36,309 nt of DNA from an uncultured Anaerolineae bacterium (GTDB lineage Bacteria > Chloroflexota > Anaerolineae > Anaerolineales > Villigracilaceae): NCBI GenBank assembly GCA_903908605.1, contig CAIVSQ010000365.1, positions 1-36,309 on the forward strand. The letters are read 5' to 3'. The notes beneath the pieces were generated by a model. That model was not told the origin of the DNA and did not search any database. It saw only the letters and a list, made by a program, of their open reading frames with translations. This document shows, piece after piece, positions 17,399 through 36,309 of the stretch (its first letter is position 1; each line of letters opens with the position of its first letter). The position numbers were made by a program, and so were the translations under genes.

Positions 17399-17416
17399 AT
17401 TGACGGAGTGTCCAAA

Positions 17417-18937
17417 ATGAACAAGGCAATTTACCGGTTTATCAGTATCTTCTTCGTAATTTCAATCATCCTCGGGGGCTATACCAACGCATCCGCCAGC
17501 AACAGCGCTGCCACTGCAGTTGTAACTTATTTTGACGACCAGGAAAGCGGCTGGAAATATACCGGCACCTGGACCACAACAGTCAGCACCCTGGCATACA
17601 AGGGTATGACCCACACCTCCAACAAAATCGGCAACTACGCCACCTTCCAAATTACCGGATCTTCCTTTACTGTCTTATACACCAAAGCCCTCAACAAGGG
17701 AAAAATTGATGTATTCGTCGATAACACCAAGTTTGCCACCTTAGACCAGAATTATATTTCGACCAATTTCAAGAGCGTTTGGAATAGCCCAGCCATCCCA
17801 AGTGGTACGCACGTCATCAAGGTCGTTCATACCGCTGGCAAACTGGTCGATCTCGATGCCCTCAAGGTAACCCGCACGGTAGCCAATTTTTCCGTGGATG
17901 CCAACCTTGGTTCAGACGCCAACCCCGGCACCCTTGCAAAACCTTGGAAGACCATTCAGAAAGCTGCTAACACCATGCTGAGCAGCGATACCGTCACCGT
18001 GCAGCCTGGTGATTACCCCGAACTTGTTTATGTCAAGCGCTCTGGCAACACCTTCACCGCCAATGGCATGGTAACCATGCGTGGCTTCTATGTCCTCGGC
18101 AGCACCAACGTGGTCCGCGGCTTCACCATCAGCAACCAGGCCAGTGACTTCGGCATCCGTGTGGAAGGCAACAATAACCTGATCGACAAGAACGACATCT
18201 CCAACACCATGCAAGATGGCATTTGGTTCTTCGGGTCAGGCAACAAGTTCACCCGCAACTATATCCATGACATCGTTGATCGCAATGTTTTTGTCGATGA
18301 CCCGCACGCGGACTGCTTCCAAACCTGGGGCCCGGCTGAAAACATCACCTTCGAAAAGAATTTCTGCAACCACACCAGCACCAGCGGCAGCAACCAGATC
18401 ACCCAGATCTCCGCAGTCAAAAACCCGGTTCGCAACATCACCTTCAAAAACAATTTGTTCATCATGAACGACCCTGGTTATTCACCGATGAACTTCAACC
18501 GCCATGTCGGCGAATACGAAATCAGCAACATGGTTGTCATCAACAACACCTTTATTCACAAGAGCACCGGCAGCTCCGCCATCCGCTTCACCAATATCAC
18601 CGGCGCCACCGCCATCAACAACCTGTTCGTCAACTTCGGATACGGCGATCAACCCTACATACTGACCGAAAGTGGTACCACTGGCACCAACTTCATCAAC
18701 AACGCAGTTTCCAAGTCAGACAAAATCGCCCCTAAGACGGGCATCCTGCCTGGTGATATGTGGCAAGCCGACCCCAGCTTTGTCGATGCCAATGCCAACA
18801 ACTTCCACCTGACCCCTGCTTCAGCTCTAATCAACCACGGTATGAATGTGAATACCCAGGTTGCAGATGATTACGATGGTACCCTGCGTCCCCAGGGCGG
18901 CGCTCACGACATCGGCGCTTTTGAATTCAAACCCTAG
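17417..18937 (+). CDS. Secreted right-handed beta-helix protein under cyclic di-GMP riboswitch control
   Basis: The 506-residue product is exported. Its N-terminus is basic and then hydrophobic, with a likely signal peptidase site after an ASA near residue 28. Residues about 35-155 look like a beta-sandwich, carbohydrate-binding-type domain (GWKYTGTW...; SGTHVIKVVHTAGK). From about 160 a DUF1565-like segment (SDANPGTLAKPWKTIQKAAN) leads into a right-handed parallel beta-helix rich in NN and N-I-T turns. A DPHADCFQTWG motif lies at 295-305. I chose the ATG at 17417 because GGAG lies 8 bases upstream; the GTG at 17408 overlaps that site. Beta-helix folds include polysaccharide lyases, hydrolases and epimerases, so it may cut, modify or bind a surface glycan. 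A close paralogue starts at 24118. Confidence 0.88.
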   Translation: MNKAIYRFISIFFVISIILGGYTNASASNSAATAVVTYFDDQESGWKYTGTWTTTVSTLAYKGMTHTSNKIGNYATFQITGSSFTVLYTKALNKGKIDVFVDNTKFATLDQNYISTNFKSVWNSPAIPSGTHVIKVVHTAGKLVDLDALKVTRTVANFSVDANLGSDANPGTLAKPWKTIQKAANTMLSSDTVTVQPGDYPELVYVKRSGNTFTANGMVTMRGFYVLGSTNVVRGFTISNQASDFGIRVEGNNNLIDKNDISNTMQDGIWFFGSGNKFTRNYIHDIVDRNVFVDDPHADCFQTWGPAENITFEKNFCNHTSTSGSNQITQISAVKNPVRNITFKNNLFIMNDPGYSPMNFNRHVGEYEISNMVVINNTFIHKSTGSSAIRFTNITGATAINNLFVNFGYGDQPYILTESGTTGTNFINNAVSKSDKIAPKTGILPGDMWQADPSFVDANANNFHLTPASALINHGMNVNTQVADDYDGTLRPQGGAHDIGAFEFKP

Positions 18938-22675: not shown

Positions 22676-23863
22676 TCACAGTCGACCAGGGGCCAGTTCT
22701 TCAAGGAGATCCCAATATTTCTGTAGTTCACTCCCCCCGGAATGACGCTGGTTGTAAGTCTGTTCTGCCAGGTCAGCAATTTCAGCACGCATAGCCGGGT
22801 TTTCATATAATCTGACAACACAATCAGCAAATTCTTTTTCATTACCGGGCTCAAAAAACAACAGGGAACCATCATCAAACATTTCCTCCACAATCCTCAA
22901 TCGAGAAGAAATGAACGGCAGTCCCATTGCGGCGAATTCCAACAACTTGCCAGGGATGGCAATGGTCATGTGAGAATCTGGCATGGCTGGGTAAATCCCC
23001 AAATCCGCCTGGGCTAATTGGGCTGGAATTTGATCATTAGGCATCGGCGGTTTGAATTCGACCATCCCGGCAACATTCAACTCATGCACAAGCGGCAGCA
23101 AAACCGACTTGTAATATTCATTCTGGGGTCCGATAATTATCAACTTAAGAGATTTAACCCTGTCTTGCAGCAGCGGCAAGGCACGGATGGCAACATCCAA
23201 TCCATAACGAGCAGCCAGGGTACCCGGAAAAATGAGGGTAAACTGCTCGTGTACTGCACCACTCGTCCCACGCCTTATGTTGGAATTAAATAGATCCGGG
23301 TCAGGAAAATTTTTTACCACCACAAATTTGGCTGGATTCACCCCCCGGTTTTGCATATTGGCTCGAAAATGAACATTGGCAGTAATCACCGCATCCGAAA
23401 ACATGACCGATATTTTTTCCTCAAGCCGGACCAATGCGAGCAGGATGGCGTACTTTTTACCCGGGAATTTTGAAATAAAAACTTCCGGCATGGCATCGTG
23501 GATATCCAAGATGATTTTCGCACCCGTCAACCTGGCAAACAAGGCCGAAAAAACCAGGAAATCAGGCATATTGTGAAAATGAATCACATCATAGCGATTC
23601 TGAAAATTCTTTTTTGTCAGTTGGGAAAACAGCTTAATGAGAGCCAAGCCATACTCAAAAAAATAGGCCAGTGAACTGCCCCGGTTACCCGAGACTCGCA
23701 ATGAAAAAATCCGGACACCATTTTTCTCAGCAACCCGAATTCCCTCCGATGAACGCACCTCAAGAACATCCACCTGGGAACCTTTTTTGACCAGTGCTTC
23801 GGCATAGGCCTTGACCCGGGCATCATTCAAATAATCAAATACGCCAACCATGCAAACTTTCAT
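22676..23863 (-). CDS. GT4-family glycosyltransferase
   Basis: The 395-residue product is a GT-B-fold retaining glycosyltransferase. The N-terminal half contains MVGVFDYLNDARVKAYAEAL and DVIHFHNMPDFLVF; the C-terminal half contains LIFPGTLAARYGLDVAIRAL, LKLIIIGPQNEYY and the nucleotide-sugar-binding segment AIPGKLLEFAAMGLPFI, which is the usual GT4 signature. No membrane span is obvious apart from hydrophobic stretches, so it works at the inner face of the membrane. The ATG at 23863 follows GGA by about 9 bases; a GTG directly before it is less likely. It probably adds one sugar to the lipid-linked repeat unit. The FemAB-like gene follows after 100 bases. Confidence 0.9.
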   Translation of the reverse strand: MKVCMVGVFDYLNDARVKAYAEALVKKGSQVDVLEVRSSEGIRVAEKNGVRIFSLRVSGNRGSSLAYFFEYGLALIKLFSQLTKKNFQNRYDVIHFHNMPDFLVFSALFARLTGAKIILDIHDAMPEVFISKFPGKKYAILLALVRLEEKISVMFSDAVITANVHFRANMQNRGVNPAKFVVVKNFPDPDLFNSNIRRGTSGAVHEQFTLIFPGTLAARYGLDVAIRALPLLQDRVKSLKLIIIGPQNEYYKSVLLPLVHELNVAGMVEFKPPMPNDQIPAQLAQADLGIYPAMPDSHMTIAIPGKLLEFAAMGLPFISSRLRIVEEMFDDGSLLFFEPGNEKEFADCVVRLYENPAMRAEIADLAEQTYNQRHSGGSELQKYWDLLEELAPGRL

Positions 23864-23919
23864 CACAAATCCTCAAATCAATCGCGAATCTCACCTGAAT
23901 GATAATGAAAAAATAATTT

Positions 23920-24015: not shown

Positions 24016-24117
24016 AATTTCAGCTACCAGCCTTAACTCACAGCCAACAAAAGCAAAATCAGGGAAAGGCTCAAACGAAAAGGAACTGGTGAATATCCCG
24101 TATTACAGGTGCATGGA

Positions 24118-25278
24118 ATGTCATTCTCTCTTACTTCCCGCTTTCTTAAACATCTCGCGCTATTCCTGGTACTGACCACAAGCTTGCTTTCTTGCAGTGG
24201 CCCGATAAAACAAGCCTATTATTACATCGATGCCCAAAAAGGCTCTGACTCTAACCCCGGCAGCCAAGACAAGCCGTGGAAATCCATTCAAAAAGCCGCG
24301 GATAGGTTACCTGCTGGTGCCACAGCATTTGTTCAAGCTGGCACCTACCCTGAGCTCGTCCTGCTCACAAAATCCAAGCTAAGCTTTATTGCAGTTGGGC
24401 AAGTTTACATGAATGGTTTTTTTGTCGAGGGCGATAACAACCTTGTGCGTGGATTTATCATTTCCAATCCGGATAGCGATTTCGGTCTTCGTGTTAGCGG
24501 GGATAACAATGTCTTCGAAAAAAACGAAATTTCCAATACAAAACAGGATGGCGTCTGGTTTTTTGGCGCAGGCAACCGCTTTACCAGTAACTACATCCAC
24601 GATATTTTAGACCGGTCGCTCATTACAGACGATCCGCATGTGGATTGCTTCCAGACCTGGGGCCCTGCAGAAAATATCACTATCGAGAAAAACCTGTGCG
24701 ATCACACCAGTACCACCGGTAGCAACCAGATCGTCCAAATTTCCAACGAAAATTCACCGGTCAGGAATATCGTTTTCAAGAACAATGTTTTCATCATGCA
24801 CAGCCCGGGTTATTCGCCAATGAATTTCCATCGGCAGGACGGCCAGGATGTTATCTCTGAAATGTATGTTATCAATAACACCATCGTGCACGCCAACGGC
24901 GGGGGGAAATCTGGCATCCGTTTTAGCAATATCACCGGCGCTTACGCCTTCAACAACCTGTTTGTTGATTATGGGTATGGTGAGGCAGATATTCCATATA
25001 TACTGATTGAGGGACAGACGGGTTACCAGCTTTCCAATAATGCCCTGTACAAATCTGACCATATCAGGCCAAACTCCGGGATGTATGCTCAGGATACCTG
25101 GTTGGATGAACTGCGCGTTACAGATTTACCCGGGCATGACTTTCACCCGCAGAGTGTCTCACCCATCATTAACGCCGGGATGGATGCATCCCAATGGATT
25201 TTGGATGATTTTGATGGCATCAAACGGCCACAGGGCAACGCCTTTGATATTGGCGCGTTTGAATTTGTCGGGAAATAA
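24118..25278 (+). CDS. Right-handed beta-helix lipoprotein, paralogue of the riboswitch-controlled protein
   Basis: The 386-residue product has a type II signal peptide: a hydrophobic core and LLSC with the lipidated Cys at position 26. Unlike its paralogue it has no beta-sandwich domain; the mature protein goes directly into a DUF1565-like segment (SDSNPGSQDKPWKSIQKAAD) and a right-handed beta-helix. The core is very similar to that at 17417, with the DPHVDCFQTWGPAENIT stretch at 172-188. The ATG at 24118 has ACAGG 8 bases upstream; an in-frame GTG at 24109 lies within that site. It is the only plus-strand gene inside the leftward glycan group. It may act on the same glycan while fixed to the cell surface. 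The exact activity is unknown. Confidence 0.85.
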   Translation: MSFSLTSRFLKHLALFLVLTTSLLSCSGPIKQAYYYIDAQKGSDSNPGSQDKPWKSIQKAADRLPAGATAFVQAGTYPELVLLTKSKLSFIAVGQVYMNGFFVEGDNNLVRGFIISNPDSDFGLRVSGDNNVFEKNEISNTKQDGVWFFGAGNRFTSNYIHDILDRSLITDDPHVDCFQTWGPAENITIEKNLCDHTSTTGSNQIVQISNENSPVRNIVFKNNVFIMHSPGYSPMNFHRQDGQDVISEMYVINNTIVHANGGGKSGIRFSNITGAYAFNNLFVDYGYGEADIPYILIEGQTGYQLSNNALYKSDHIRPNSGMYAQDTWLDELRVTDLPGHDFHPQSVSPIINAGMDASQWILDDFDGIKRPQGNAFDIGAFEFVGK

Positions 25279-25333: not shown

Positions 25334-26608
25334 TTATTCCTGCTTTTTCGCGCCCAGGTACCAGGCCAGCGAATATGCGAGAAGTGAGCTAAACACACCC
25401 GCCAATACAGCCAGCGAAGCGCCCCAAATACCATAACGTGGGATCAAGCTGATCCCCAGGCTCGCCCCAACCGCCAGTGCAACAAAACGTCCGATGGTTT
25501 CGGTACCCGGGCGATTCTTGCCAACCAGCACAGAGACCATAATGGAGTTCAATCCCGAAATAATGCTGGCGAGAGCCATCACCAGGGCCACCTTGTTTTC
25601 CACCTGGTAATCGATACCGAAGAAATACCTGATGAACGGTCCCAATAAAAGTAAATAACCTACAATGATCACCAGGTTGGTTAAAAGGGCAATCCCAATT
25701 GCACGCCACAACATCTTGGAATGCTGATCCTTGTGGGCGGCTGCCACTTCAGGCAACAGGATCGACGATATGCCCTGCGGCAAAAAGGTAAAAACTGTCG
25801 CAATCGTTACATTCAAACGATACACTCCCACTGCGGAGCTATCAACAAAATGCTCCAGCAATAGAATATCCATAGCGCTGAATAACACATACCCAAACTG
25901 GGAGAGCCAGATGGGCATGGAAAATTTAAAAACTTCCTGCATAATTTCTTTTTTCAGCAAAGACAGGCGCATCCCAAGCGGGGCCAATGGCTTGTAATAA
26001 TGCAGCAAAATCAACGGCAGAAAATAGGATGTACCGTAAATAATGAGCGCTAATTGGGTCGATTGGATACGCAAAACCTGGACCAGGAAAATCACCATCA
26101 GGATTTGGACCAGATTGCTACCCAGGTAAGCTATGGCAAGCCGTCCTGATGCAAGAAAACCTCGCGCCAATCCCCAGTAACTATAGAAAACGGTCTGCCC
26201 AATGAAAATTACCAGCACCCCGAGGGTCAATTCAGGCGCTTTCAACCAAATAAAAGGAGCAGCAACCAAACCCGATACAACCGTAACCGCAACCTGCAGA
26301 AAAGTCAGGTTGGTAAGTGTTTGATCAAGCAATTCAGGCTGATTTTTTTGCCTGGCAACATACTGGGCGATGACATGCATCCCAAAGGGTGTTGTGCCAA
26401 TTGAAACCAGGGTGGCAAGCGTGATGGCGTATTGAACTGAACCAAAATCACTTGGGGAAAACACGCGCGCAAGCACCAACGAATAGGCTAACCCTAACAC
26501 CCGCGCAATCGCAATCGCACCCGATAGCAGGGTGGAGCCCTTGATAAATCGCCAATCCAGATTTTGTAGCCTGGACTTGATGCCTGCGATGGAGAAATGT
26601 TCAGGCAA
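25334..26608 (-). CDS. Wzx-like polysaccharide flippase
   Basis: This is a MOP-superfamily membrane protein (polysaccharide biosynthesis protein family) of 424 residues with about 12-14 hydrophobic segments. The opening (KGSTLLSGAIAIARVLGLAYSLVLARVFSPSDFGSVQYA in parts) is typical: a first helix, then the LAR.FSPSDFG motif of Wzx-type exporters. It would move the lipid-linked repeat unit across the membrane. The start is a TTG at 26608 with GGGG upstream; there is no ATG in a suitable place, so the start is uncertain. It overlaps the preceding glycosyltransferase gene by 8 bases, which suggests translational coupling. It is distinct from murJ in the same window. Confidence 0.87.
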   Translation of the reverse strand: MPEHFSIAGIKSRLQNLDWRFIKGSTLLSGAIAIARVLGLAYSLVLARVFSPSDFGSVQYAITLATLVSIGTTPFGMHVIAQYVARQKNQPELLDQTLTNLTFLQVAVTVVSGLVAAPFIWLKAPELTLGVLVIFIGQTVFYSYWGLARGFLASGRLAIAYLGSNLVQILMVIFLVQVLRIQSTQLALIIYGTSYFLPLILLHYYKPLAPLGMRLSLLKKEIMQEVFKFSMPIWLSQFGYVLFSAMDILLLEHFVDSSAVGVYRLNVTIATVFTFLPQGISSILLPEVAAAHKDQHSKMLWRAIGIALLTNLVIIVGYLLLLGPFIRYFFGIDYQVENKVALVMALASIISGLNSIMVSVLVGKNRPGTETIGRFVALAVGASLGISLIPRYGIWGASLAVLAGVFSSLLAYSLAWYLGAKKQE

Positions 26609-27596
26609 GGATTTTTTCCCCGATCAAATCCTGCAGGCGTTTAAATTCTGACTCCCAGCGAACACGTTTTTCCACTGCCAGTTCGGTGACTTCCTGGCTC
26701 AAGACAGGTCCATTGGCAATCGCTTTTTGAACACCCTCGATAATACTCTCCGGAGTATGTTCAATAAAAACCGTCCCCTTGGTGAAATAATCTACCAGGG
26801 CGGGCTGATTGGATAAAATCAGCGGTTTACCCAGGGCCATGCCATCCTGCCCACCTGCCAACAATGAATATGGATGGGTAGTGAGGACCATAACCGCGTC
26901 AGAAGAATACAAACGATTCCAGTAATCTTCGTTGAACAGGAACCCGGTAAAAGTTACATTGGCAGGTGCCGATTTAAGCAAGCTTTTTTTCGCTAGACCA
27001 GTATCGCCCAAAATATAAAACGAAACATCTGGAAGCTGCCTGGCAGCCTCCAGGATGGGAAGTACAGGTTCATCATCATTGAACGTATTGACAACCGTCA
27101 CGCTATGTTTCAGGGGGTCTTTAATGACTTTTAGATTTTCAATAGCGACATTAATCGGGACTCGTTCCAGCACCAGGGTTTTAGCACCCCAGGACGTAAA
27201 CAGGTTGGTCCGAATTTGTTGGTCAACAATATTCATAATCGCACGACGTGCCAAAAAATGGTGCAGTGGAATACTCCATTTCCACTTCCAGCCACTCATG
27301 GAATTGCCATGCACATCCATAACGAAATTCGCGCCCGAAAAAATGCAATAAATATATACACTCAATGCAGAAAAAATTGGCGAAACCGCTACGTAAATCA
27401 CCTTTGGGCGCTGGCGGGCAAGCACTGACCAGGTCTTGAAAAACTGGAGTACATATTTAAAGGGCGCCAGCCAGGGGCGCTTAGATTTTAGATAATGAAC
27501 CTGGTAAAACGTAGCCTGCAACCGCTTTGAGTACTGGTTTGTTCGTGAGCAGTGCGGAGACCAGGCAACTGCTGCAATAGGGTTGGTACTGTTCAC
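26601..27596 (-). CDS. Glycosyltransferase (GT-B fold)
   Basis: The 331-residue product looks like a GT4-type glycosyltransferase. The N-terminal half includes PKVIYVAVSPIFSALSVYIY and FVMDVHGNSMSG; the C-terminal half includes VSFYILGDTGLAKK, NVTFTGFLFNEDYWNRLYSS and the nucleotide-sugar site GGQDGMALGKPLILS. I start at the GTG at 27596, which shares the bases GTGA with the stop codon of the upstream polymerase gene. A longer in-frame start at 27644 would overlap that gene by 52 bases. It probably adds a sugar to the repeat unit; donor and acceptor are unknown. Confidence 0.85.
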   Translation of the reverse strand: MNSTNPIAAVAWSPHCSRTNQYSKRLQATFYQVHYLKSKRPWLAPFKYVLQFFKTWSVLARQRPKVIYVAVSPIFSALSVYIYCIFSGANFVMDVHGNSMSGWKWKWSIPLHHFLARRAIMNIVDQQIRTNLFTSWGAKTLVLERVPINVAIENLKVIKDPLKHSVTVVNTFNDDEPVLPILEAARQLPDVSFYILGDTGLAKKSLLKSAPANVTFTGFLFNEDYWNRLYSSDAVMVLTTHPYSLLAGGQDGMALGKPLILSNQPALVDYFTKGTVFIEHTPESIIEGVQKAIANGPVLSQEVTELAVEKRVRWESEFKRLQDLIGEKILA

Positions 27597-29023
27597 GCGC
27601 GCGCCTCCACCACCCGCTGGGTGGAGAGTGCCAGCAGAATCCACATATATTCAGCCGTACCAGAATAAGCGAAAACCGCATTGGTAAAACCAGCCATGAA
27701 CATGACCACCATCACCGCAATGGATATAACGATCGCAATCGTCGTGGGATTAATATCCTTGGATTTTAGATATTCGTGCACATGTCTTCGATACAACCAG
27801 TAAAGAGTCACAAACACCCACAACACGAAGCCGATAAAACCTATCAAGCCAAAACCAAACAACAGTGAAATATACTGACTTTCAGTATATTTCCATGAGA
27901 AAGTGTTTGGGATGGTTAAGTCCACGCCCCATAGAATGTGTCCCTTGAGGGATGGCAGGTAAATATCCTGCCAAATACGAAAGCGATCCAACAGTGTTGC
28001 GGGAATCATACCGCCATAACCAAACTGGGTCTGCAAACGTTTATCGATCAGCGCTCCAAAGATCAGGAAGGTAACCACGGTTACAATCGCCATACCCACC
28101 AATAAAATGACCGTCCTGCGATTTAACCCACGTAATAAAACCGTGATGATTAAGATGCCAACCACAGTGGAAAACATACCAGCAAAGGAACCACTAAGCA
28201 CGAGCGCCGCTGTGCAGATCACCATCGCCAAAGCAATAAAACCATTGCCCAATTCATTCGAGCGGGAAACACCAAACGCCCAGGCAATAAACATGTTCAC
28301 CATCAGGAAAATACCAAGACCATTCCACGCAGACATCAGCGAAGTGATGCGGCCAATTCTTACCGCCTGTGCTTCGTGGGAGGACGAATACCAATTGTGC
28401 AGCAGGCTGGTGATTGGACCTACTTTCAACGCCTGCAGCAAGCCGATCCCTGCCACGACTACACCACAAAACAGCATCAGTTTGAGAATATTAGTGCGCT
28501 CTGCCTTGTTATCAGGCAGATAGGTAAAAAGCCAGAATACAACGAAATATTGCAAAGGGGCAAACAGGACGATCAGGTCATCGACGGTAAATTTCAAACC
28601 GCGCAACAGGTATGAGATACCCGGAATTAAGATTGTGCCCAAAGTCAGCGACACAATGGCAGCCAACAACCCGCCCATATCTGTACTCTGACGACGTTTC
28701 GCTACCACCAGTACGACCAGTGCAATTGCTACTGCCAAGACCAGCACTGCTTCGTTAGGAATCAGAAACGGAATCAGCTTTCCACGCGTCATACCAGAGG
28801 TAAAGGCTGTTGACAGAATAACCAGATAACAAATAAAGACTGGTTTTGCCAGGCTGATTAATACAACCATCACCAGGGCAGTTACACCCACGGCAACCAG
28901 TGGAGACACAAAAACCAGCAAGCCAATGAATAGTCCGACAATGCAGGGTAAGATAATTTCCAGAAAATGAATGCCAGAATAACCAAAAAATTTATCAGAA
29001 CGATCAACAGAAGGTTGTACCAT
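27593..29023 (-). CDS. Wzy-like O-antigen / exopolysaccharide polymerase
   Basis: The 476-residue protein is a polytopic membrane protein with about 11-12 hydrophobic segments and a large extracytoplasmic loop late in the chain (about residues 325-370, with DRFRIWQDIYLPSLKGHILWG-type residues). This matches the O-antigen ligase/polymerase (Wzy_C/WaaL) family, where the large loop carries catalytic residues; RFRIW in the loop is a common feature. It would join repeat units outside the membrane. AGGA lies about 8 bases before the ATG. A new promoter and a strong hairpin lie upstream, so it may head a second transcript comprising polymerase, glycosyltransferase and flippase. Confidence 0.83.
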   Translation of the reverse strand: MVQPSVDRSDKFFGYSGIHFLEIILPCIVGLFIGLLVFVSPLVAVGVTALVMVVLISLAKPVFICYLVILSTAFTSGMTRGKLIPFLIPNEAVLVLAVAIALVVLVVAKRRQSTDMGGLLAAIVSLTLGTILIPGISYLLRGLKFTVDDLIVLFAPLQYFVVFWLFTYLPDNKAERTNILKLMLFCGVVVAGIGLLQALKVGPITSLLHNWYSSSHEAQAVRIGRITSLMSAWNGLGIFLMVNMFIAWAFGVSRSNELGNGFIALAMVICTAALVLSGSFAGMFSTVVGILIITVLLRGLNRRTVILLVGMAIVTVVTFLIFGALIDKRLQTQFGYGGMIPATLLDRFRIWQDIYLPSLKGHILWGVDLTIPNTFSWKYTESQYISLLFGFGLIGFIGFVLWVFVTLYWLYRRHVHEYLKSKDINPTTIAIVISIAVMVVMFMAGFTNAVFAYSGTAEYMWILLALSTQRVVEARA

Positions 29024-29187: not shown

Positions 29188-30300
29188 TCAGGATTTATTC
29201 CCAGCCTGGAATTCAGCCACCATTTCTACAACGTACTTAACTTGTTCTTCCTCGAGGTCTGCGTACATCGGCAGGGAAAGGATGTCAGAAGTGACCTCTT
29301 CCGTGACAGGGAAGTCACCCTTCTTATAACCAAGATACGCCATTGAATTCTGCAAATGCAGCGGAATGGGGTAATGGATACCGGTGAAAACGCCCTTGCT
29401 CTTCAAGAAATTCTGGAGTTCGTCACGGTTTTCTGTACGAATGACATACAGATGGTAGACATGGCTATTCTCAGATTTCTCGAATGGGGTCGTCACCTTC
29501 AAACCACTCAAAAGCTGGTTATATTGCTTTGCATGCGCGCGGCGAAGAACATTCCATTCTGGCAGGTGCTTAAGCTTCACCCGTAACACAACAGCCTGCA
29601 ATTCATCCAAGCGACCATTAAAACCGAGCATATCGTGGTGATAGCGAACACCTGAGCCATGATCACGGATCATGCGAATCTTTTTCGCCAGATCTTCGTT
29701 GTTAGTGGAAATAAAACCACCTTCACCATAAGCGCCCAGGTTCTTGGAAAAATAGAAGCTGAAACCCGCCGCATCGCCAAGGCTGCCCGCCTTGCGTCCC
29801 TTGTATTCAGCGCCATGGGCCTGGCAGGCATCTTCCACAACCCACAATTTGTGACGCTTGGCAATATCCATCAAGGGATCCATATCAACGGTCTGCCCAT
29901 ACAAATGCACCGGCAGGATAGCCTTGGTATTGCTGGTAATTTTTCCTTCCACCTGCGAAACATCCATCAGCCAGGTATTCGGATCAATATCCACGAAAAC
30001 TGGTTTAGCGCCAGTCAACATAATCGCTTCTGCACTGGCAATGAAGGTGTGCGCAACCGTGATCACTTCATCCCCGGGGCCAACACCCATCGCGCGCAGG
30101 ATGATCTGCAGCGCGGCGGTACCATCGCTGACACCGATACCATATGCGGCACCAGAGTATTGGGCGAAATCCTTCTCCAGGGTCTGGACATTCTCCCCAA
30201 GGAAAAGCTGCATGCTATCCAATACTTTCTCAAAACCAGCAAAGATCTCTTGTTTGAGAGGGGCGTATTGTTTTTTCAAATCAACGAAAGGGACGTTCAT
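29188..30300 (-). CDS. DegT/DnrJ/EryC1/StrS sugar aminotransferase (WbpE-like)
   Basis: PLP-dependent aminotransferase of 370 residues that converts a keto group on a nucleotide sugar into an amine. Motifs: SDGTAALQI (phosphate binding, about 58-66), VVEDACQAHGA with Asp157, and the PLP lysine Lys186 in SFYFSKNLGAYGEGG. Its neighbours are an acetyltransferase and a Gfo/Idh dehydrogenase in the same order as Pseudomonas wbpB-wbpD-wbpE, which make UDP-2,3-diacetamido-glucuronic acid; by analogy this enzyme would place the 3-amino group. AGGAGA lies 6 bases before the ATG. The general family is certain; the exact sugar is inferred from context. Confidence 0.9.
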   Translation of the reverse strand: MNVPFVDLKKQYAPLKQEIFAGFEKVLDSMQLFLGENVQTLEKDFAQYSGAAYGIGVSDGTAALQIILRAMGVGPGDEVITVAHTFIASAEAIMLTGAKPVFVDIDPNTWLMDVSQVEGKITSNTKAILPVHLYGQTVDMDPLMDIAKRHKLWVVEDACQAHGAEYKGRKAGSLGDAAGFSFYFSKNLGAYGEGGFISTNNEDLAKKIRMIRDHGSGVRYHHDMLGFNGRLDELQAVVLRVKLKHLPEWNVLRRAHAKQYNQLLSGLKVTTPFEKSENSHVYHLYVIRTENRDELQNFLKSKGVFTGIHYPIPLHLQNSMAYLGYKKGDFPVTEEVTSDILSLPMYADLEEEQVKYVVEMVAEFQAGNKS

Positions 30301-30318: not shown

Positions 30319-30798
30319 TTAACTTTTTCGAATGGGACGAGCAGGATTGCCAGCTACAACTGCACCAGCAGGAACATCGCGGGTCACCACGCTACCCGCA
30401 CCAACAATGGCCTTCTCGCCGACGGTAACGCCGCACAATATTGTGGCGTTGCTGCCGATGGAAGCACCATGCTTAATCAAAGTTGGGGTGCAGACCCAGT
30501 CCTGTTCGGTCTGAAGCTGACCTTCTTCGGTTGTCGCACGTGGATATTTGTCATTGATAAACATGACACCATGTCCAATGAAAACTTCATCCTCAATCGT
30601 AACGCCTTCACAGATGAAGGTATGGCTGGAAACTTTGACGCGAGAGCCAATGCGCGATCCCTTTTGGATTTCTACGAAGGTGCCAACCTTGGTATCATCG
30701 CCAATTTCACAACCGTACAGGTTGACAAATGCATAAATTTTTACATTTTGTCCCAGCTTTACATCCGGGGAAATGCGGGAAAATTCGGCATTTACCAT
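30319..30798 (-). CDS. Left-handed beta-helix sugar N-acetyltransferase (WbpD-like)
   Basis: The 159-residue product consists almost wholly of hexapeptide repeats (for example IGDDTKVGTFVEI, IGSRVKVSSHTFI, IEDEVFIGHGVMF and VGEKAIVGAGSVV), the left-handed beta-helix of acetyl-CoA-dependent acyltransferases. It ends with VVAGNPARPIRKS, the usual finish of this family. It likely acetylates the amino group made by the neighbouring aminotransferase, as WbpD does. The start overlaps the end of the dehydrogenase gene by 7 bases and has GAGGTG 6 bases upstream, so translation is coupled. The aminotransferase gene follows after 18 bases. Confidence 0.9.
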   Translation of the reverse strand: MVNAEFSRISPDVKLGQNVKIYAFVNLYGCEIGDDTKVGTFVEIQKGSRIGSRVKVSSHTFICEGVTIEDEVFIGHGVMFINDKYPRATTEEGQLQTEQDWVCTPTLIKHGASIGSNATILCGVTVGEKAIVGAGSVVTRDVPAGAVVAGNPARPIRKS

Positions 30799-31808
30799 TC
30801 GATCACCTCATGGGAAGACCCGTTCTCAATCGAACGCAGGGCAGCTTCAATGATCTTGATTACGTTCAAACCCACCCGCCCAGAACTACGTGGTTCGGTA
30901 TGGTTAATAATGCTTTCGATAAAGTGTTCACATTCCTGGCGCAGCGGTTCCTGGTAGCGAATGACCGGGATGGAAATATCGCCAGAACGATAGTTGTATT
31001 GAAATTCGCCAAAGCCATTGGTGTAACCAGGTGCATCCACGCCCTTGTCGTATATCTTGATTTTGGCTTCTGCTTCCATGTCATTATAGACAGCCATTTT
31101 CTGGCTACCCACCACAGTGACACGCCGAACCTTGCACGGATCCAGCCAACTGACATGTACGTAAGCCGTCAGATTGTTGGGAAATAGCAGGCTCAGGTAA
31201 GCAACATCATAAACGCCATTCAACACGCAGGGCACCGCCTGTGCGCTGACAGAAATTGGTTTTTTCTCAAGCAAAAAGAGCAGGATGGAGATATCGTGAG
31301 TGGCAAGATCCCACAACACATTCGATTTGCGTGAGTAGAGACCCAGGTTTAGCCGGGCAGTGTCAAGGTAATAAATATCACCGAGATCCTTGTTGTTAAT
31401 ATATTGCTTGAGAGCAAGGACAGCAGTGTTGTACTCAAAGGTGTGGCCAACCATCAGGATAAGCCCACCTGCATCGGCCAATTCGATCAATTCCTTGGCG
31501 TCAGCGCTACTATCGGTCATCGGCTTTTCAATCAATACGTGCAAGCCATTCTGCAAGCATTCCTTGGCAATCTTGAAATGTGTGCTGGGTGGAGTGGAGA
31601 TGACCACAGCATCCAGACCGAGAGTAAATAACTCGTGATAATCTTTCACCACGGCAATATGCGGATACTTGGCCTTGGCTCGCGCCAACTGGTCATCTTT
31701 TAAATCGGCAATACCAATCAGGACAGAATCCGGAATTTCAAAAAAATTCCTGGTTAGATTAGGTCCCCAGTACCCAAAGCCAATGATCCCTACTCGAATT
31801 TCACTCAT
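30792..31808 (-). CDS. Gfo/Idh/MocA-family nucleotide-sugar dehydrogenase (WbpB-like)
   Basis: NAD-dependent oxidoreductase of 338 residues with an N-terminal Rossmann fold (VGIIGFGYWGPN, Gly10, Gly12, Gly15), the family's EKP motif in HVLIEKPMTD (near 93-96) and a C-terminal alpha/beta substrate domain. In the WbpB reaction the 3-hydroxyl of UDP-GlcNAc-uronate is oxidised to a ketone for the aminotransferase. I start at the ATG at 31808, preceded by AAGGAA; a longer in-frame start at 31901 would overlap the upstream transferase gene and add 31 unrelated residues. Coupled to the acetyltransferase gene by overlap. Confidence 0.9.
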   Translation of the reverse strand: MSEIRVGIIGFGYWGPNLTRNFFEIPDSVLIGIADLKDDQLARAKAKYPHIAVVKDYHELFTLGLDAVVISTPPSTHFKIAKECLQNGLHVLIEKPMTDSSADAKELIELADAGGLILMVGHTFEYNTAVLALKQYINNKDLGDIYYLDTARLNLGLYSRKSNVLWDLATHDISILLFLLEKKPISVSAQAVPCVLNGVYDVAYLSLLFPNNLTAYVHVSWLDPCKVRRVTVVGSQKMAVYNDMEAEAKIKIYDKGVDAPGYTNGFGEFQYNYRSGDISIPVIRYQEPLRQECEHFIESIINHTEPRSSGRVGLNVIKIIEAALRSIENGSSHEVIEW

Positions 31809-31834
31809 GTTTTTGTTCCTTATTGAATGGATTT

Positions 31835-32590
31835 TTATTCTGCTCCCCTTGCAGATAAAATGACAAACGGAGTTTTTAAAATAATTGTGGTGTCTAGCCA
31901 AAATGATTGACGCTCAACATAATCGATATCGAGCCGCACCTGCTGATCAAAATCAGCGGTGGAACGAGCTGTCACCTGTTGCAGACCGGTAATCCCAGGT
32001 TGGGCTTCGAGCCTGCGTAAATGCCAGGGTTTATACATATCCACTTCATACGGGATGGCCGGTCGGGGACCAACCACACTCATTTCGCCAATCAAGACAT
32101 TGATAAATTGTGGCAGTTCATCCAGGCTGAGTTTTCGCAGGATCTTACCTGGAGCGGTTACCCGCGAGTCTTTCACCAGCTTGCGGACTTCAGTTTTCTC
32201 ACCTTGAAGTTCGGCCATTTTGTCGTGATCATTTTCGATCAGCGCTCGAACATAGGCTTCGTGTATTGCGGTATCCGCGTTCACCGTCATGGTTCGGAAT
32301 TTATAGCACTTGAATGTCTCACGTTTCCAAACCAACTGACCAGCCCTCTTCACCCGTCGGGCACCAACTCTTTCTTGCAAGAAAAAAACCGGGCCTGGAG
32401 AATAAAGAGCTATCACCAAACCAATCAATAAAAACAAAGGAGAAAGAACAATCAACACAACCAACGAAAAAACAATATCAACCAATCGTTTTAAAAAATA
32501 AAATAGCGCACGGTCCCGCGCGAGACCAATATAGGTGTGATCGTTGATATCGTTCGTCTCGTTACTGTTTTCTTCTTGCACAGAAGTCAT
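31835..32590 (-). CDS. Initiating sugar-1-phosphate transferase (bacterial sugar transferase family)
   Basis: This enzyme moves a sugar-1-phosphate from a nucleotide sugar to undecaprenyl phosphate, starting repeat-unit synthesis. The 251-residue protein has a charged N-terminus, one hydrophobic segment (about 36-62) and the cytosolic catalytic part with PGPVFFLQERVG, KCYKFRTM, LRKLSLDELPQFINVL, MSVVGPRPAIPYEV and QPGITGLQQV, all hallmarks of PF02397. It is of the short, single-segment type, without the extra membrane domain of WbaP. The ATG at 32590 has GGGA about 10 bases upstream; a TTG at 32599 is a weaker alternative. The first sugar is not known. Confidence 0.92.
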   Translation of the reverse strand: MTSVQEENSNETNDINDHTYIGLARDRALFYFLKRLVDIVFSLVVLIVLSPLFLLIGLVIALYSPGPVFFLQERVGARRVKRAGQLVWKRETFKCYKFRTMTVNADTAIHEAYVRALIENDHDKMAELQGEKTEVRKLVKDSRVTAPGKILRKLSLDELPQFINVLIGEMSVVGPRPAIPYEVDMYKPWHLRRLEAQPGITGLQQVTARSTADFDQQVRLDIDYVERQSFWLDTTIILKTPFVILSARGAE

Positions 32591-32717: not shown

Positions 32718-35003
32718 TTATTTTCTCTTCATGCGAGTGCGGTTTCGGGCCCAGCCGCTAATAATCACGATCAGCAGCACCACGACAATCAAAACAATCG
32801 ATGCCAGCAGTGCGGGTAGCAGCCAGTTAGGTTTGGCGGCAACCGGAGCTGAGACCGGAACATTCGTATTGCCAGCCGGCAAAACATTTGCCTGGCCTGC
32901 GCCCTGACCGACAGCAGCGGTGGGACCCGCGCTTACATTCAGCAGGGTTGTATCGGTGGTCAATATCTGGCGTTCACTGACAGAAGCGAAGTTACCCGCC
33001 AGACGCCAGCTCAAGGTGGAATCTACCAGCGAGGAAGTCGCCCAATTGACGCCTTCGGTTGAATTACCGAAGACACCGACAACAATATTAGCAGGGTTCC
33101 AACTGGATTGCATAATCTGAACAAAACCCATCTGCGATTCGGGCGAAACTCGGTAGAGAACCCGGTAATTACTGATCACGGGGGTGTCACTACCATCCGG
33201 GAATGGGGCAGGAAGTCCGGCATTCAATTCTTTGACAAAAGGCAGCTCGCTTGGGCGGCCGACCACCATGAAGTTGAATTTTGCCTTCTGATCTTCGGGA
33301 ACAGCATTACCAAAGAATACCGTCAGGTCAACCAGCGGACTATTGACCTGGTCACCCAGGTAAGCAGCCACACGTGAGGCGGCACGCCAGGCTTCCACGT
33401 TGTTCTCGGGCACGACCAGGGCCGTATCGGAAAGAGTCGGGTTATACAGGAAGACAGGCAGGTAAGAAGTCAGGTTTTTCTGGATGGAGGCCGGGGTAAT
33501 GCTGGATTCAACGATCGGTAAATGTAGAACCGATTCAGGCCAGATATTGACCCACAAACCCTGGTTTGCATTGGGCGGGGTGCAGTCGTCTGTTGGCCAG
33601 AGTGTTGTGGCTACCTGCAAAATATTACGCCCAGGCACAATCGCAGCAGAGGGTATCTGGATACGAGCCTTGTTGGTGGCCGCAGCCGATGAAGCCTCGC
33701 CCATGCGTACACTGCCAATCGGGCGATTGTTCAGAAGCACCACAATACCAGACCGTTCAAAATTCAACATGGCTGAATTGCCATAGATCAAATCGAAATA
33801 TGCATCTGAAGCAGTAGTATAGCCAGCCGGAACATTGAAGATATAACGGGTAAAGTTGACACCACGGCTCTGAACGATCGTGTTACGGTAACCCATTTCT
33901 GCCAGTGTGCGGTCAACAGCCTGGCCACCAGTCGCAACCGAAGGCTGAACCTTATCAATTACAGCCACATTAGGAGCCTGGTTGGCCTGCAGGACACCAG
34001 TGCTGACGGCCTGGGCGGCCTTTACAGCCGCAGAATCGGTAGCACCAGAGACAACCAACACAACGTGCGAGGGGCTCCAGGGCGAATTGACCATCTGAAC
34101 CACGCCATCATCATCATTGCCACCAACAGGGGAGAATTTTCCATTCACGGCGGGCATGGCAAGTGTAAGTTCAGAAAGGGTTGGCAGGGAAGCAGCCTTA
34201 CCCACGAAGACTATGTGATTAGCCTTTTGCTGTTCAGGGGTCAGGGAGCTGACCGTTACGAGATCAAGAGCCAGGTTGTTTCCGCTCAAATTGCTCAAAC
34301 CAGCCGAAACAGTGAAGGCAGCTTTCAACTCAGCCGCGCTGGGTTTATCAGGCACCACGATGACAGCCGTATCGGTGATCACCAAGTTTTGAAAAATTGG
34401 GCGCGGGAAATTCACCAGGCTGGTATCGGGCATCACCGTGTCATGGGGGAACACAAACCGGGTGGAGGGGTGAATAAACACATTTGTGGATTGGGCTACA
34501 TTACAAGCATTACCACTGTTCAGCACAAAACTGATCGTCATGGTTTGATCGATGGACTGCGGAATAAGCTGATCCGCAGGCAACGGGACCACAATTTTCT
34601 GTTCTCCAACTGTTTCTAGCGGGAGGACATATACAGCCTGGTTGTCAATCAAAACGGTGAGGGTACCACCACCGGTGAAGACATCATTTTTGGCGTTTTG
34701 GACGAGAGTGTTGAAAGTAACACCCATGTAAATTTCCAGTTGAGCGCCATCGGTAATTTTCCAATCTGCTGGAATGGAGAAATAAAAACCGGCGGAGTCA
34801 TAAGAACCAGACAACTGAATTTCTGAGCGCCGAAGCATTTCGAATGTGATCGTGTTCGGATCGGTCACCGGTATTGTTAGCGCACGGGAGCCTGAAGGGG
34901 TGGGGGTTGGCACAAGGGCCTGCGCACTGGTAGCAACCTGACCCAGGAATACACTAATTGTCAAAATCAAAACGAATAATATTTTTACAAGTCGCTTAAA
35001 CAT
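32718..35003 (-). CDS. BcsB-like membrane-anchored polysaccharide synthase subunit
   Basis: The 761-residue protein has a signal peptide (about 1-29), a PTPTPSGS linker, two repeated carbohydrate-binding/flavodoxin-like halves, and a C-terminal membrane anchor at about 727-749 with a basic tail. Pattern of the BcsB family: a jelly-roll strand set with LSGSYDSAGFYFSIPADWKI, a VLIDNQAVYVLPL segment, then NFPRPIFQ and VVVPDKPSAAELKAA; a second copy begins with NVPAGYTTASDAYFDLIYG and has VLLNNRPIGSVRM. In cellulose systems BcsB is the extracytoplasmic partner of the synthase BcsA. No BcsA-type GT2 enzyme is in this window, so its partner is unknown. AAGGAGA precedes the ATG. It lies 20 bases after the Wzz-GGDEF gene. 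Confidence 0.82.
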   Translation of the reverse strand: MFKRLVKILFVLILTISVFLGQVATSAQALVPTPTPSGSRALTIPVTDPNTITFEMLRRSEIQLSGSYDSAGFYFSIPADWKITDGAQLEIYMGVTFNTLVQNAKNDVFTGGGTLTVLIDNQAVYVLPLETVGEQKIVVPLPADQLIPQSIDQTMTISFVLNSGNACNVAQSTNVFIHPSTRFVFPHDTVMPDTSLVNFPRPIFQNLVITDTAVIVVPDKPSAAELKAAFTVSAGLSNLSGNNLALDLVTVSSLTPEQQKANHIVFVGKAASLPTLSELTLAMPAVNGKFSPVGGNDDDGVVQMVNSPWSPSHVVLVVSGATDSAAVKAAQAVSTGVLQANQAPNVAVIDKVQPSVATGGQAVDRTLAEMGYRNTIVQSRGVNFTRYIFNVPAGYTTASDAYFDLIYGNSAMLNFERSGIVVLLNNRPIGSVRMGEASSAAATNKARIQIPSAAIVPGRNILQVATTLWPTDDCTPPNANQGLWVNIWPESVLHLPIVESSITPASIQKNLTSYLPVFLYNPTLSDTALVVPENNVEAWRAASRVAAYLGDQVNSPLVDLTVFFGNAVPEDQKAKFNFMVVGRPSELPFVKELNAGLPAPFPDGSDTPVISNYRVLYRVSPESQMGFVQIMQSSWNPANIVVGVFGNSTEGVNWATSSLVDSTLSWRLAGNFASVSERQILTTDTTLLNVSAGPTAAVGQGAGQANVLPAGNTNVPVSAPVAAKPNWLLPALLASIVLIVVVLLIVIISGWARNRTRMKRK

Positions 35004-35023: not shown

Positions 35024-36157
35024 CTAGGCGTTGGCTTTATTGGCGGATACGAATGAAGCCTTCATTTCCATAACATACACGGGAACTTCACTCTTCTGCC
35101 TGGCTTGATCCAACGCATTGGTCGCCCTCTCAAACAACTCCGGCGCAGTAATTCGGCTGCCATATTCTGCACCACCGATATGGGCATCGAGATTTAATAC
35201 CAGGTCAAATTGGCCAAGATCCACTGGCTGGGAGAGCGATTGGAAAATCCGCTCAAAAATACGGTTGGCAGCAATACCAGGGGTATTGGGCAGCATAACC
35301 ACAAAACTGATGTCATCCCAACGGCCGATCACATCGTTGCCGCGCAGTTCTTTGTGCAGGGTATCGGTGACATTTTTGAAAACATTCTGAAGTGTAGCGA
35401 CCGGCAAGGTGTCAATCAAATCGCTGATACCGGCCAGTTCAATGATGCCAATACTCATTACCGTATCGGGCTTTTCCGCCAGAACATCTTCTACACGGCG
35501 AACAAGGAAACGCTTGTTGAAGACACCGGTCATATTATCGATGTTAAAGCGCTGCCTAAAGGCCTCGAGCGGCAGACGAATTTGTTCACTCAGGACAGCC
35601 AGTGCCATGCCAATGATCAAACCCAACAGCAGAGCAATCGCAGAGTAAAGCAATGGCTGAGGGCTGACAGGCTCAACGGGTGGGGTAGCAATATCCAAAA
35701 AGTCAACAGTGTAAACCTGGTTCAACTTGCTGACGAATTTGATCGATTCGCTGCTGATGGTATTTGCCATTTCCGACGCCAGCTTCGGATCAGGACCAAC
35801 CACACTGACCTCAAGAACACTGGAACTGGAAACGACCGAGGCGTTGTAGGTATATGCCACGATGTCAGCAGGTTGCAATTTCAAACTAGCCAGGGTTTCG
35901 GTGAGAATGCGCTCGCTGTTCATCACCTCATTAATCGTCAACACAACAGACTGTTTGTCCAACGTACTGAGTGTGTTTACCACATCAGATCTATTGACAA
36001 GATCCGCGCTTGGGCTAACAATCAGGCGTGAAATTGCTTCATACTGGGGAACCGCAATAAATGAAGCCCCCAAAGCACCGACCAGGGCGAAGAGCATGGT
36101 CAATAATATAATCCACCAGCCGCGCCTGAGCATCTGAAAGTAAAGTCTTAATTCCAT
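35024..36157 (-). CDS. Wzz-like chain-length protein fused to a degenerate GGDEF domain
   Basis: The 377-residue protein has two membrane segments (about 13-36 and 169-190) enclosing a Wzz/YveK-type extracytoplasmic domain; VEPVSPQPLL just before the second is the usual Pro-rich motif of Wzz proteins. The cytosolic C-terminus (about 205-353) is a GGDEF domain in outline: DNMTGVFNKR matches DxLTGLxNRR, GRWDDISFVVMLPNT matches GRYGGDEFxxxLPxT, and a closing ELFERATNALDQAR is present. The active-site motif reads DDISF (281-285), and the metal-binding DxD is replaced by ELA (240-242), so cyclase activity is unlikely. The inhibitory-site motif RxxD (Arg272, Asp275) is kept. In related systems a tyrosine kinase often holds this C-terminal place. 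The ATG at 36157 has GGAG 9 bases upstream. Confidence 0.87.
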   Translation of the reverse strand: MELRLYFQMLRRGWWIILLTMLFALVGALGASFIAVPQYEAISRLIVSPSADLVNRSDVVNTLSTLDKQSVVLTINEVMNSERILTETLASLKLQPADIVAYTYNASVVSSSSVLEVSVVGPDPKLASEMANTISSESIKFVSKLNQVYTVDFLDIATPPVEPVSPQPLLYSAIALLLGLIIGMALAVLSEQIRLPLEAFRQRFNIDNMTGVFNKRFLVRRVEDVLAEKPDTVMSIGIIELAGISDLIDTLPVATLQNVFKNVTDTLHKELRGNDVIGRWDDISFVVMLPNTPGIAANRIFERIFQSLSQPVDLGQFDLVLNLDAHIGGAEYGSRITAPELFERATNALDQARQKSEVPVYVMEMKASFVSANKANA

Positions 36158-36309
36158 AATTCTATTCTCCTCTTGAAACAACAAGAAAGGTGTCTTAATT
36201 CCTTCAAACAAAAATTAATCGCATTGCCACAACAGGCAAAACGCGACAAAATCAACGAAAAATTAGGATTCAAAAAGTATTCAGCAATATTAAAAAAATG
36301 AAAGAAGCA
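36158..36309 (-). other. Upstream region of the wzz-GGDEF gene, cut by the window end
   Basis: A+T-rich sequence with no gene. I see no convincing promoter or aptamer in it, so the transcript may begin outside the window. Confidence 0.4.

Follow-up and report, generated by a model that had tools for sequence, protein, structure and literature searches.

A Wzz-type polysaccharide co-polymerase fused to a degenerate GGDEF domain that retains the RxxD motif in Chloroflexota

Whether c-di-GMP can act on a Wzx/Wzy polysaccharide pathway through the co-polymerase itself is the question raised by a gene near the end of the window (the whole stretch of DNA analysed here, which is an entire contig of 36,309 bases and part of a 5.77-Mb draft genome). 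Direct action of c-di-GMP is familiar from synthase-type polysaccharide machines (cellulose, alginate, Pel, and PNAG), and Wzx/Wzy pathways are far more common than machines of this type. Post-translational control of Wzx/Wzy pathways was described in 2025 as incompletely understood (PMC12802240). The gene encodes a Wzz-like polysaccharide co-polymerase (PCP) that continues into a degenerate GGDEF domain (GGDEF*), and it is the only PCP fused to a GGDEF domain in its genome.

The fusion gene and its two halves

The gene and the parts of its product are located as follows.

35024..36157 (-), Wzz-GGDEF* fusion gene, 377 aa; open reading frame confirmed at these coordinates
36167..36174 (-), ribosome-binding site AAGAGGAG, a good match, preceding the ATG at 36157
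35885..36151 (-), Wzz (PCP) domain, residues 3-91 (Pfam E 3e-11)
residues 1-194 (-), whole PCP part (TIGR01006; Foldseek matches to KpsE and Wzc)
36056..36118 (-), membrane segment 1, about residues 14-34 (hydropathy; model helix 14-33)
35576..35650 (-), membrane segment 2, about residues 170-194 (hydropathy; model helix 170-194)
35093..35545 (-), degenerate GGDEF domain, residues 205-355, cytosolic (Pfam E 6e-14; profile search, predicted structure)
35432..35440 (-), ELA, residues 240-242, replacing the metal-binding site (PleD D327; PleD alignment)
35333..35344 (-), RGND, residues 272-275, the RxxD inhibitory-site motif (PleD R359-D362; PleD alignment)
35303..35317 (-), DDISF, residues 281-285, replacing the GG[DE]EF signature (alignment)
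35249..35251 (-), Arg303, equivalent to PleD R390, the secondary inhibitory-site Arg (alignment; R in 28/42 and K in 5/42 homologues)

A TTG-started open reading frame of 395 aa is less likely to have the real start than the ATG with AAGAGGAG at 36157. Only 152 bases of the contig precede this ATG, and the gene upstream of the fusion is therefore out of view.

The Wzz topology read from the sequence in the earlier note, with two membrane segments followed by a cytosolic GGDEF-like domain, was borne out by Pfam, hydropathy, and TIGR01006. This last family (CpsC-family chain length determinant) is the best NCBIfam match of the first half, covering residues 7-191 with an E of 4e-19, which is under the curated cut-off, and GNVR is a weak Pfam match at residues 135-189. 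The fusion shares with PCP-2 proteins a Wzz domain, two flanking membrane helices, and a length of about 190 residues for this part. The two hydrophobic segments flank an extracytoplasmic loop, and the C-terminal domain is therefore cytosolic. The full-length AlphaFold model is poor (pLDDT 51, from a two-sequence input) and of no use for oligomer geometry; its better first half matches the PCP proteins KpsE and Wzc in Foldseek.

For the second half, a profile of the domain made from 16 homologues matches solved diguanylate cyclases, with values down to 1e-18. The AlphaFold2 model of the domain, built from only two sequences, is usable (mean pLDDT 68, pTM 0.68), and in a structure comparison it best matches c-di-GMP-bound PleD and further GGDEF domains, at a Z of about 19; Foldseek likewise finds GGDEF domains. 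The GGDEF fold, which had been fixed beforehand as a test that the proposal could fail, is confirmed by this model (Z 19 to PleD with c-di-GMP). PelD is absent among the fold matches listed for the model, which says nothing against kinship. In the PleD alignment, whose numbering was verified against the PDB entry, R272 falls on R359, D275 on D362, and R303 on R390, and the alignment is gap-free from RxxD to R303. The same alignment confirms what had been read from the sequence: the hallmarks of a diguanylate cyclase (the GG[DE]EF signature and the metal-binding Asp of DxD) are replaced by DDISF and ELA, and RxxD (R272-D275) is intact. The catalytic positions of PleD have changed throughout (D327→E, N335→I, D344→Q, GGEEF→DDISF, and R446→E). 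Judged by its sequence, the protein is a polysaccharide co-polymerase in which the catalytic residues of the GGDEF fold have been lost and the RxxD pocket has been retained.

Conservation of the fusion and of its RxxD motif

Searches for homologues found the fusion in dozens of genomes. A total of 51 distinct full-length fused homologues were gathered from several classes of Chloroflexota, including the same genus, family, order, and class as well as other families of the phylum; identity to the query was 22-51% in a first set of 17. Carriers include two Anaerolineales genome records, the type strain of Herpetosiphon aurantiacus, and a plasmid of Leptolinea sp. HRD-7 (AP024711.1, 212 kb), where the product is annotated as a ‘hypothetical protein’. 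An assembly chimera or one-off event is ruled out, as dozens of genomes, among them a complete type-strain chromosome, share the architecture. In a quick tree of the PCP part, in which many forks are weakly supported, the distribution of fused and unfused proteins needs six changes, against 13.6 in shuffles, and the fusion is therefore probably old, with a few losses or regains.

Residue conservation was counted in 42 of the 51 fused sequences, kept at <80% identity. The survival of RxxD alongside the loss of GGDEF had also been set in advance as a test, and the proposal passed it: RxxD is intact in 39/42 sequences and GG[DE]EF is present in 0/42. Since the signature is missing from all 42, an active cyclase is ruled out. 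No positions in the domain are better conserved than D275 (41/42) and R272 (40/42, one of these misaligned), and the positions of PleD D327, N335, D344, K442, and R446 are not conserved. The recurrence of the fusion in dozens of genomes and the standing of RxxD as the best-conserved element of the domain make the fusion more than a product of chance. The exceptions to RxxD comprise one clade with P for R, one disrupted motif, and one H. In the first two of these three groups, a neighbouring membrane pseudo-GGDEF protein retains RxxD. The Pro-bearing clade (L042-L045, from genomes of family f49), in which the pseudo-GGDEF gene is adjacent, offers a natural test of which receptor matters.

Conservation of RxxD has to be read against its ancestry. 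The window's genome carries 24 ordinary GG[DE]EF domains, so that c-di-GMP is presumably made, and 23/24 of them also have RxxD, which is therefore ancestral. The Asp of RxxD is common to GGDEF domains generally. As the motif is ancestral and the catalytic positions have drifted, the case for a receptor rests on the retention of the Arg.

Gene neighbourhoods and the tyrosine kinase

The cluster in the window runs from the fusion through a BcsB-like protein, an initiating transferase, sugar-modifying enzymes, a putative Wzy, and a glycosyltransferase to Wzx, and by its gene content it is the Wzx/Wzy cluster expected around a PCP-2 protein.

32718..35003 (-), BcsB-like protein, 761 aa, recurrent partner (strong Pfam BcsB match)
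31835..32575 (-), initiating sugar-phosphate transferase (Bac_transf)
30792..31814 (-), Gfo/Idh/MocA oxidoreductase (nucleotide-sugar synthesis)
30319..30798 (-), hexapeptide acyltransferase
29188..30300 (-), DegT-type sugar aminotransferase
27593..29023 (-), putative Wzy (polymerase), multi-pass membrane protein, assigned by position and topology; its product has no match in Pfam or NCBIfam
26601..27644 (-), glycosyltransferase group 1 (weak)
25334..26608 (-), Wzx-type flippase (Polysacc_synt)
22676..23866 (-), glycosyltransferase group 1

Two related secreted proteins of parallel beta-helix-like type are encoded within this cluster on the opposite strand (17408-18937 (+) and 24109-25278 (+)), and relatives occur in a few homologous loci; they are possibly glycan lyases or epimerases, an assignment made by eye.

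Around 48 fused loci (one of them counted twice), a Wzy relative was found in 33, Wzx in 31, and an initiating transferase in 26; contig ends and a span of roughly 10 kb make all neighbourhood counts lower bounds. The Wzx/Wzy setting of the fusion is conserved across classes. A BcsB-like protein lies near 29/48 fused loci and is the next gene in 17, and on the Leptolinea sp. HRD-7 plasmid two tandem BcsB-like genes (L171:15279-19756) directly follow the Wzz-GGDEF gene. BcsB might suggest a cellulose locus, which is ruled out: neither BcsA nor CelA cellulose synthase, the catalytic partner in cellulose synthesis, was found in the window's genome assembly (91% complete), and Wzx and the initiating transferase are present. 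A sequence search of solved structures with the BcsB-like protein gave no match. In Chloroflexota, BcsB seems to have been recruited as a partner of polysaccharide systems in general.

A second pseudo-GGDEF protein is encoded beside the initiating transferase and lies near 20/48 fused loci (e.g., L026:7142-8023 (+) and L161:5151-6029 (+)). It has about four membrane helices, as judged by eye, and its Pfam GGDEF match is 6e-6 in L026 and below the cut-off in L161. At its RxxD position, R is found in 22/27 and D in 26/27 non-redundant sequences. Its outline is similar to that of PelD, with no GAF domain detected, and the window's genome has no full-length match to it.

The earlier note had further proposed that the GGDEF domain takes the place of the tyrosine kinase of other Wzz-type systems, a claim that held in part. 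With two Wzc-type proteins of the same genome as queries (mutual match at 1e-66 as the positive control), no tyrosine kinase was found within about 10 kb of the 48 fused loci (0/48), though one encoded farther away is possible. The protein itself carries none either, so that the fusion has neither the fused kinase of PCP-2a nor the nearby kinase of PCP-2b systems. The two Wzc-type PCP-kinases of the window's genome lie elsewhere. However, no kinase was found nearby in 15 loci with a PCP homologue lacking the GGDEF domain either. A separate membrane pseudo-GGDEF protein occurs in 12 of these 15 loci. As far as gene content tells, the GGDEF domain is not essential to a PCP, since the 15 loci do without it.

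A candidate c-di-GMP receptor and its relation to known systems

The evidence fits best with a c-di-GMP receptor that is built in one piece with a Wzx/Wzy co-polymerase, controls it, and works without a kinase, a reading that we consider probable and in which binding of the ligand is inferred. The two-helix PCP part would be expected to form a ring beside Wzy, with its loop outside the membrane. c-di-GMP from the many ordinary diguanylate cyclases of the genome would bind R272, D275, and R303; the bound form would probably be an intercalated dimer bridging neighbouring GGDEF* domains. The PCP ring could thereby change in its oligomeric state or in its spacing, so that polymerisation is turned on or chain length is set. 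The ligand would in this way do the job of the tyrosine-kinase phosphorylation cycle in Wzc and CapAB systems, and the BcsB-like partner probably takes charge of the glycan once it emerges outside the membrane. The equivalent of Arg303 is kept in only 28/42 homologues, which is a point against this reading.

The retained motif could also be explained by a GGDEF* domain that is a ligand-free scaffold, oligomerising the PCP ring or docking partners, in which RxxD has persisted through common descent or because it serves packing. PCP-2 systems do have scaffolds that are pseudo-enzymes (PMC12004946), RxxD is near-universal in the active cyclases of the genome and could be inherited, and the Arg has been lost in a few homologues; but R272 and D275 outconserve the core of the fold despite large divergence, and conservation of this kind in a surface Arg is hard to explain without a ligand, which makes the scaffold unlikely. 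A good deal less probable is the binding of another nucleotide (GTP, ppGpp, or cGAMP) in the remnant of the active site, for instance as a GTP sensor. The fold is intact and some inactive GGDEF domains bind GTP, but the guanine and metal contacts of PleD (D327, N335, D344) and its phosphate contacts (K442, R446) are the very positions that have not been conserved. Least probable of all, and only barely worth entertaining, is a domain that is decaying as functionless baggage of an ancestral diguanylate cyclase-PCP fusion: the loss of all catalytic residues and the existence of domain-free PCP homologues would suit it, but full-length open frames in 51 distinct sequences from several classes, with RxxD sharply conserved, would not.

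The receptor reading can be extended, tentatively and with more doubt than belief, to a kinase-free class of Wzx/Wzy systems, widespread in Chloroflexota, that is switched by c-di-GMP at two points, the fused and the four-helix pseudo-GGDEF proteins. c-di-GMP dimers would bridge two or several inhibitory sites and so couple initiation with polymerisation, and a BcsB-like protein borrowed from cellulose synthase would guide the chain outside.

If the receptor reading is true, a co-polymerase that carries its own c-di-GMP pocket would connect the signal directly to a Wzx/Wzy pathway within a single protein, and would show that a ligand switch can take over from the kinase cycle considered indispensable for PCP-2 proteins. 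The findings suggest that c-di-GMP switches the common Wzx/Wzy export route directly and not via the usual tyrosine kinase. The hypothesis is open to testing because the full cassette is present in a strain in culture, the type strain of Herpetosiphon aurantiacus. No description of a Wzz-GGDEF fusion was found in the open-licence papers searched; the parts are known, and to judge by those papers the novelty lies in how they are combined, in the pathway concerned, and in the missing kinase.

PelD and BcsE are proven degenerate-GGDEF receptors that bind c-di-GMP through RxxD in other exopolysaccharide systems (PMC8461298; PMC7439463), and the fusion has the same set of features, namely the GGDEF fold, lost catalytic residues, and a conserved RxxD. 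The comparison with PelD drawn in the earlier note is therefore apt, and BcsE adds a second precedent. PelD likewise sits in the inner membrane, ends in a degenerate GGDEF domain carrying RxxD, and is encoded in a polysaccharide gene cluster (PMC8461298). The differences are that PelD spans the membrane with four helices, contains a GAF domain, and works in a synthase-dependent pathway without being a PCP, whereas the fusion has two helices, a Wzz/CpsC-type PCP, a Wzx/Wzy pathway, and no GAF match. The GGDEF* domain of BcsE is also catalytically dead and binds c-di-GMP through RxxD (PMC7439463), but belongs to a soluble REC-GGDEF tandem for cellulose secretion with no membrane PCP. Alg44 of the alginate system, which is also termed a co-polymerase, is a direct binder of c-di-GMP (PMC8461298), but binds it through a PilZ domain, acts with the synthase Alg8, and is not Wzz-like.

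Among co-polymerases, the CpsC/CapA proteins (PCP-2b, TIGR01006) have the same two-helix PCP of about 190 residues, but their short cytosolic tail pairs with a separate tyrosine kinase, where the fusion has GGDEF* and no nearby kinase. Wzc (PCP-2a) similarly unites in one chain a PCP and a large regulatory domain that follows the second helix in the cytosol, but that domain is a P-loop kinase with a tyrosine tail in place of a GGDEF fold. In Myxococcus, a scaffold role alongside EpsV has been proposed for the pseudokinase EcpK (PMC12004946), and the precedent of EcpK and HfsB indicates that PCP-2 proteins can work without phosphorylation (PMC12004946). EcpK/EpsV and HfsB/HfsA thus share with the fusion a phosphorylation-independent control of the PCP by a catalytically dead cytosolic module (PMC12004946), but their module is a pseudokinase on a separate chain with no known ligand, whereas that of the fusion is a pseudo-cyclase on the same chain with a predicted ligand pocket.
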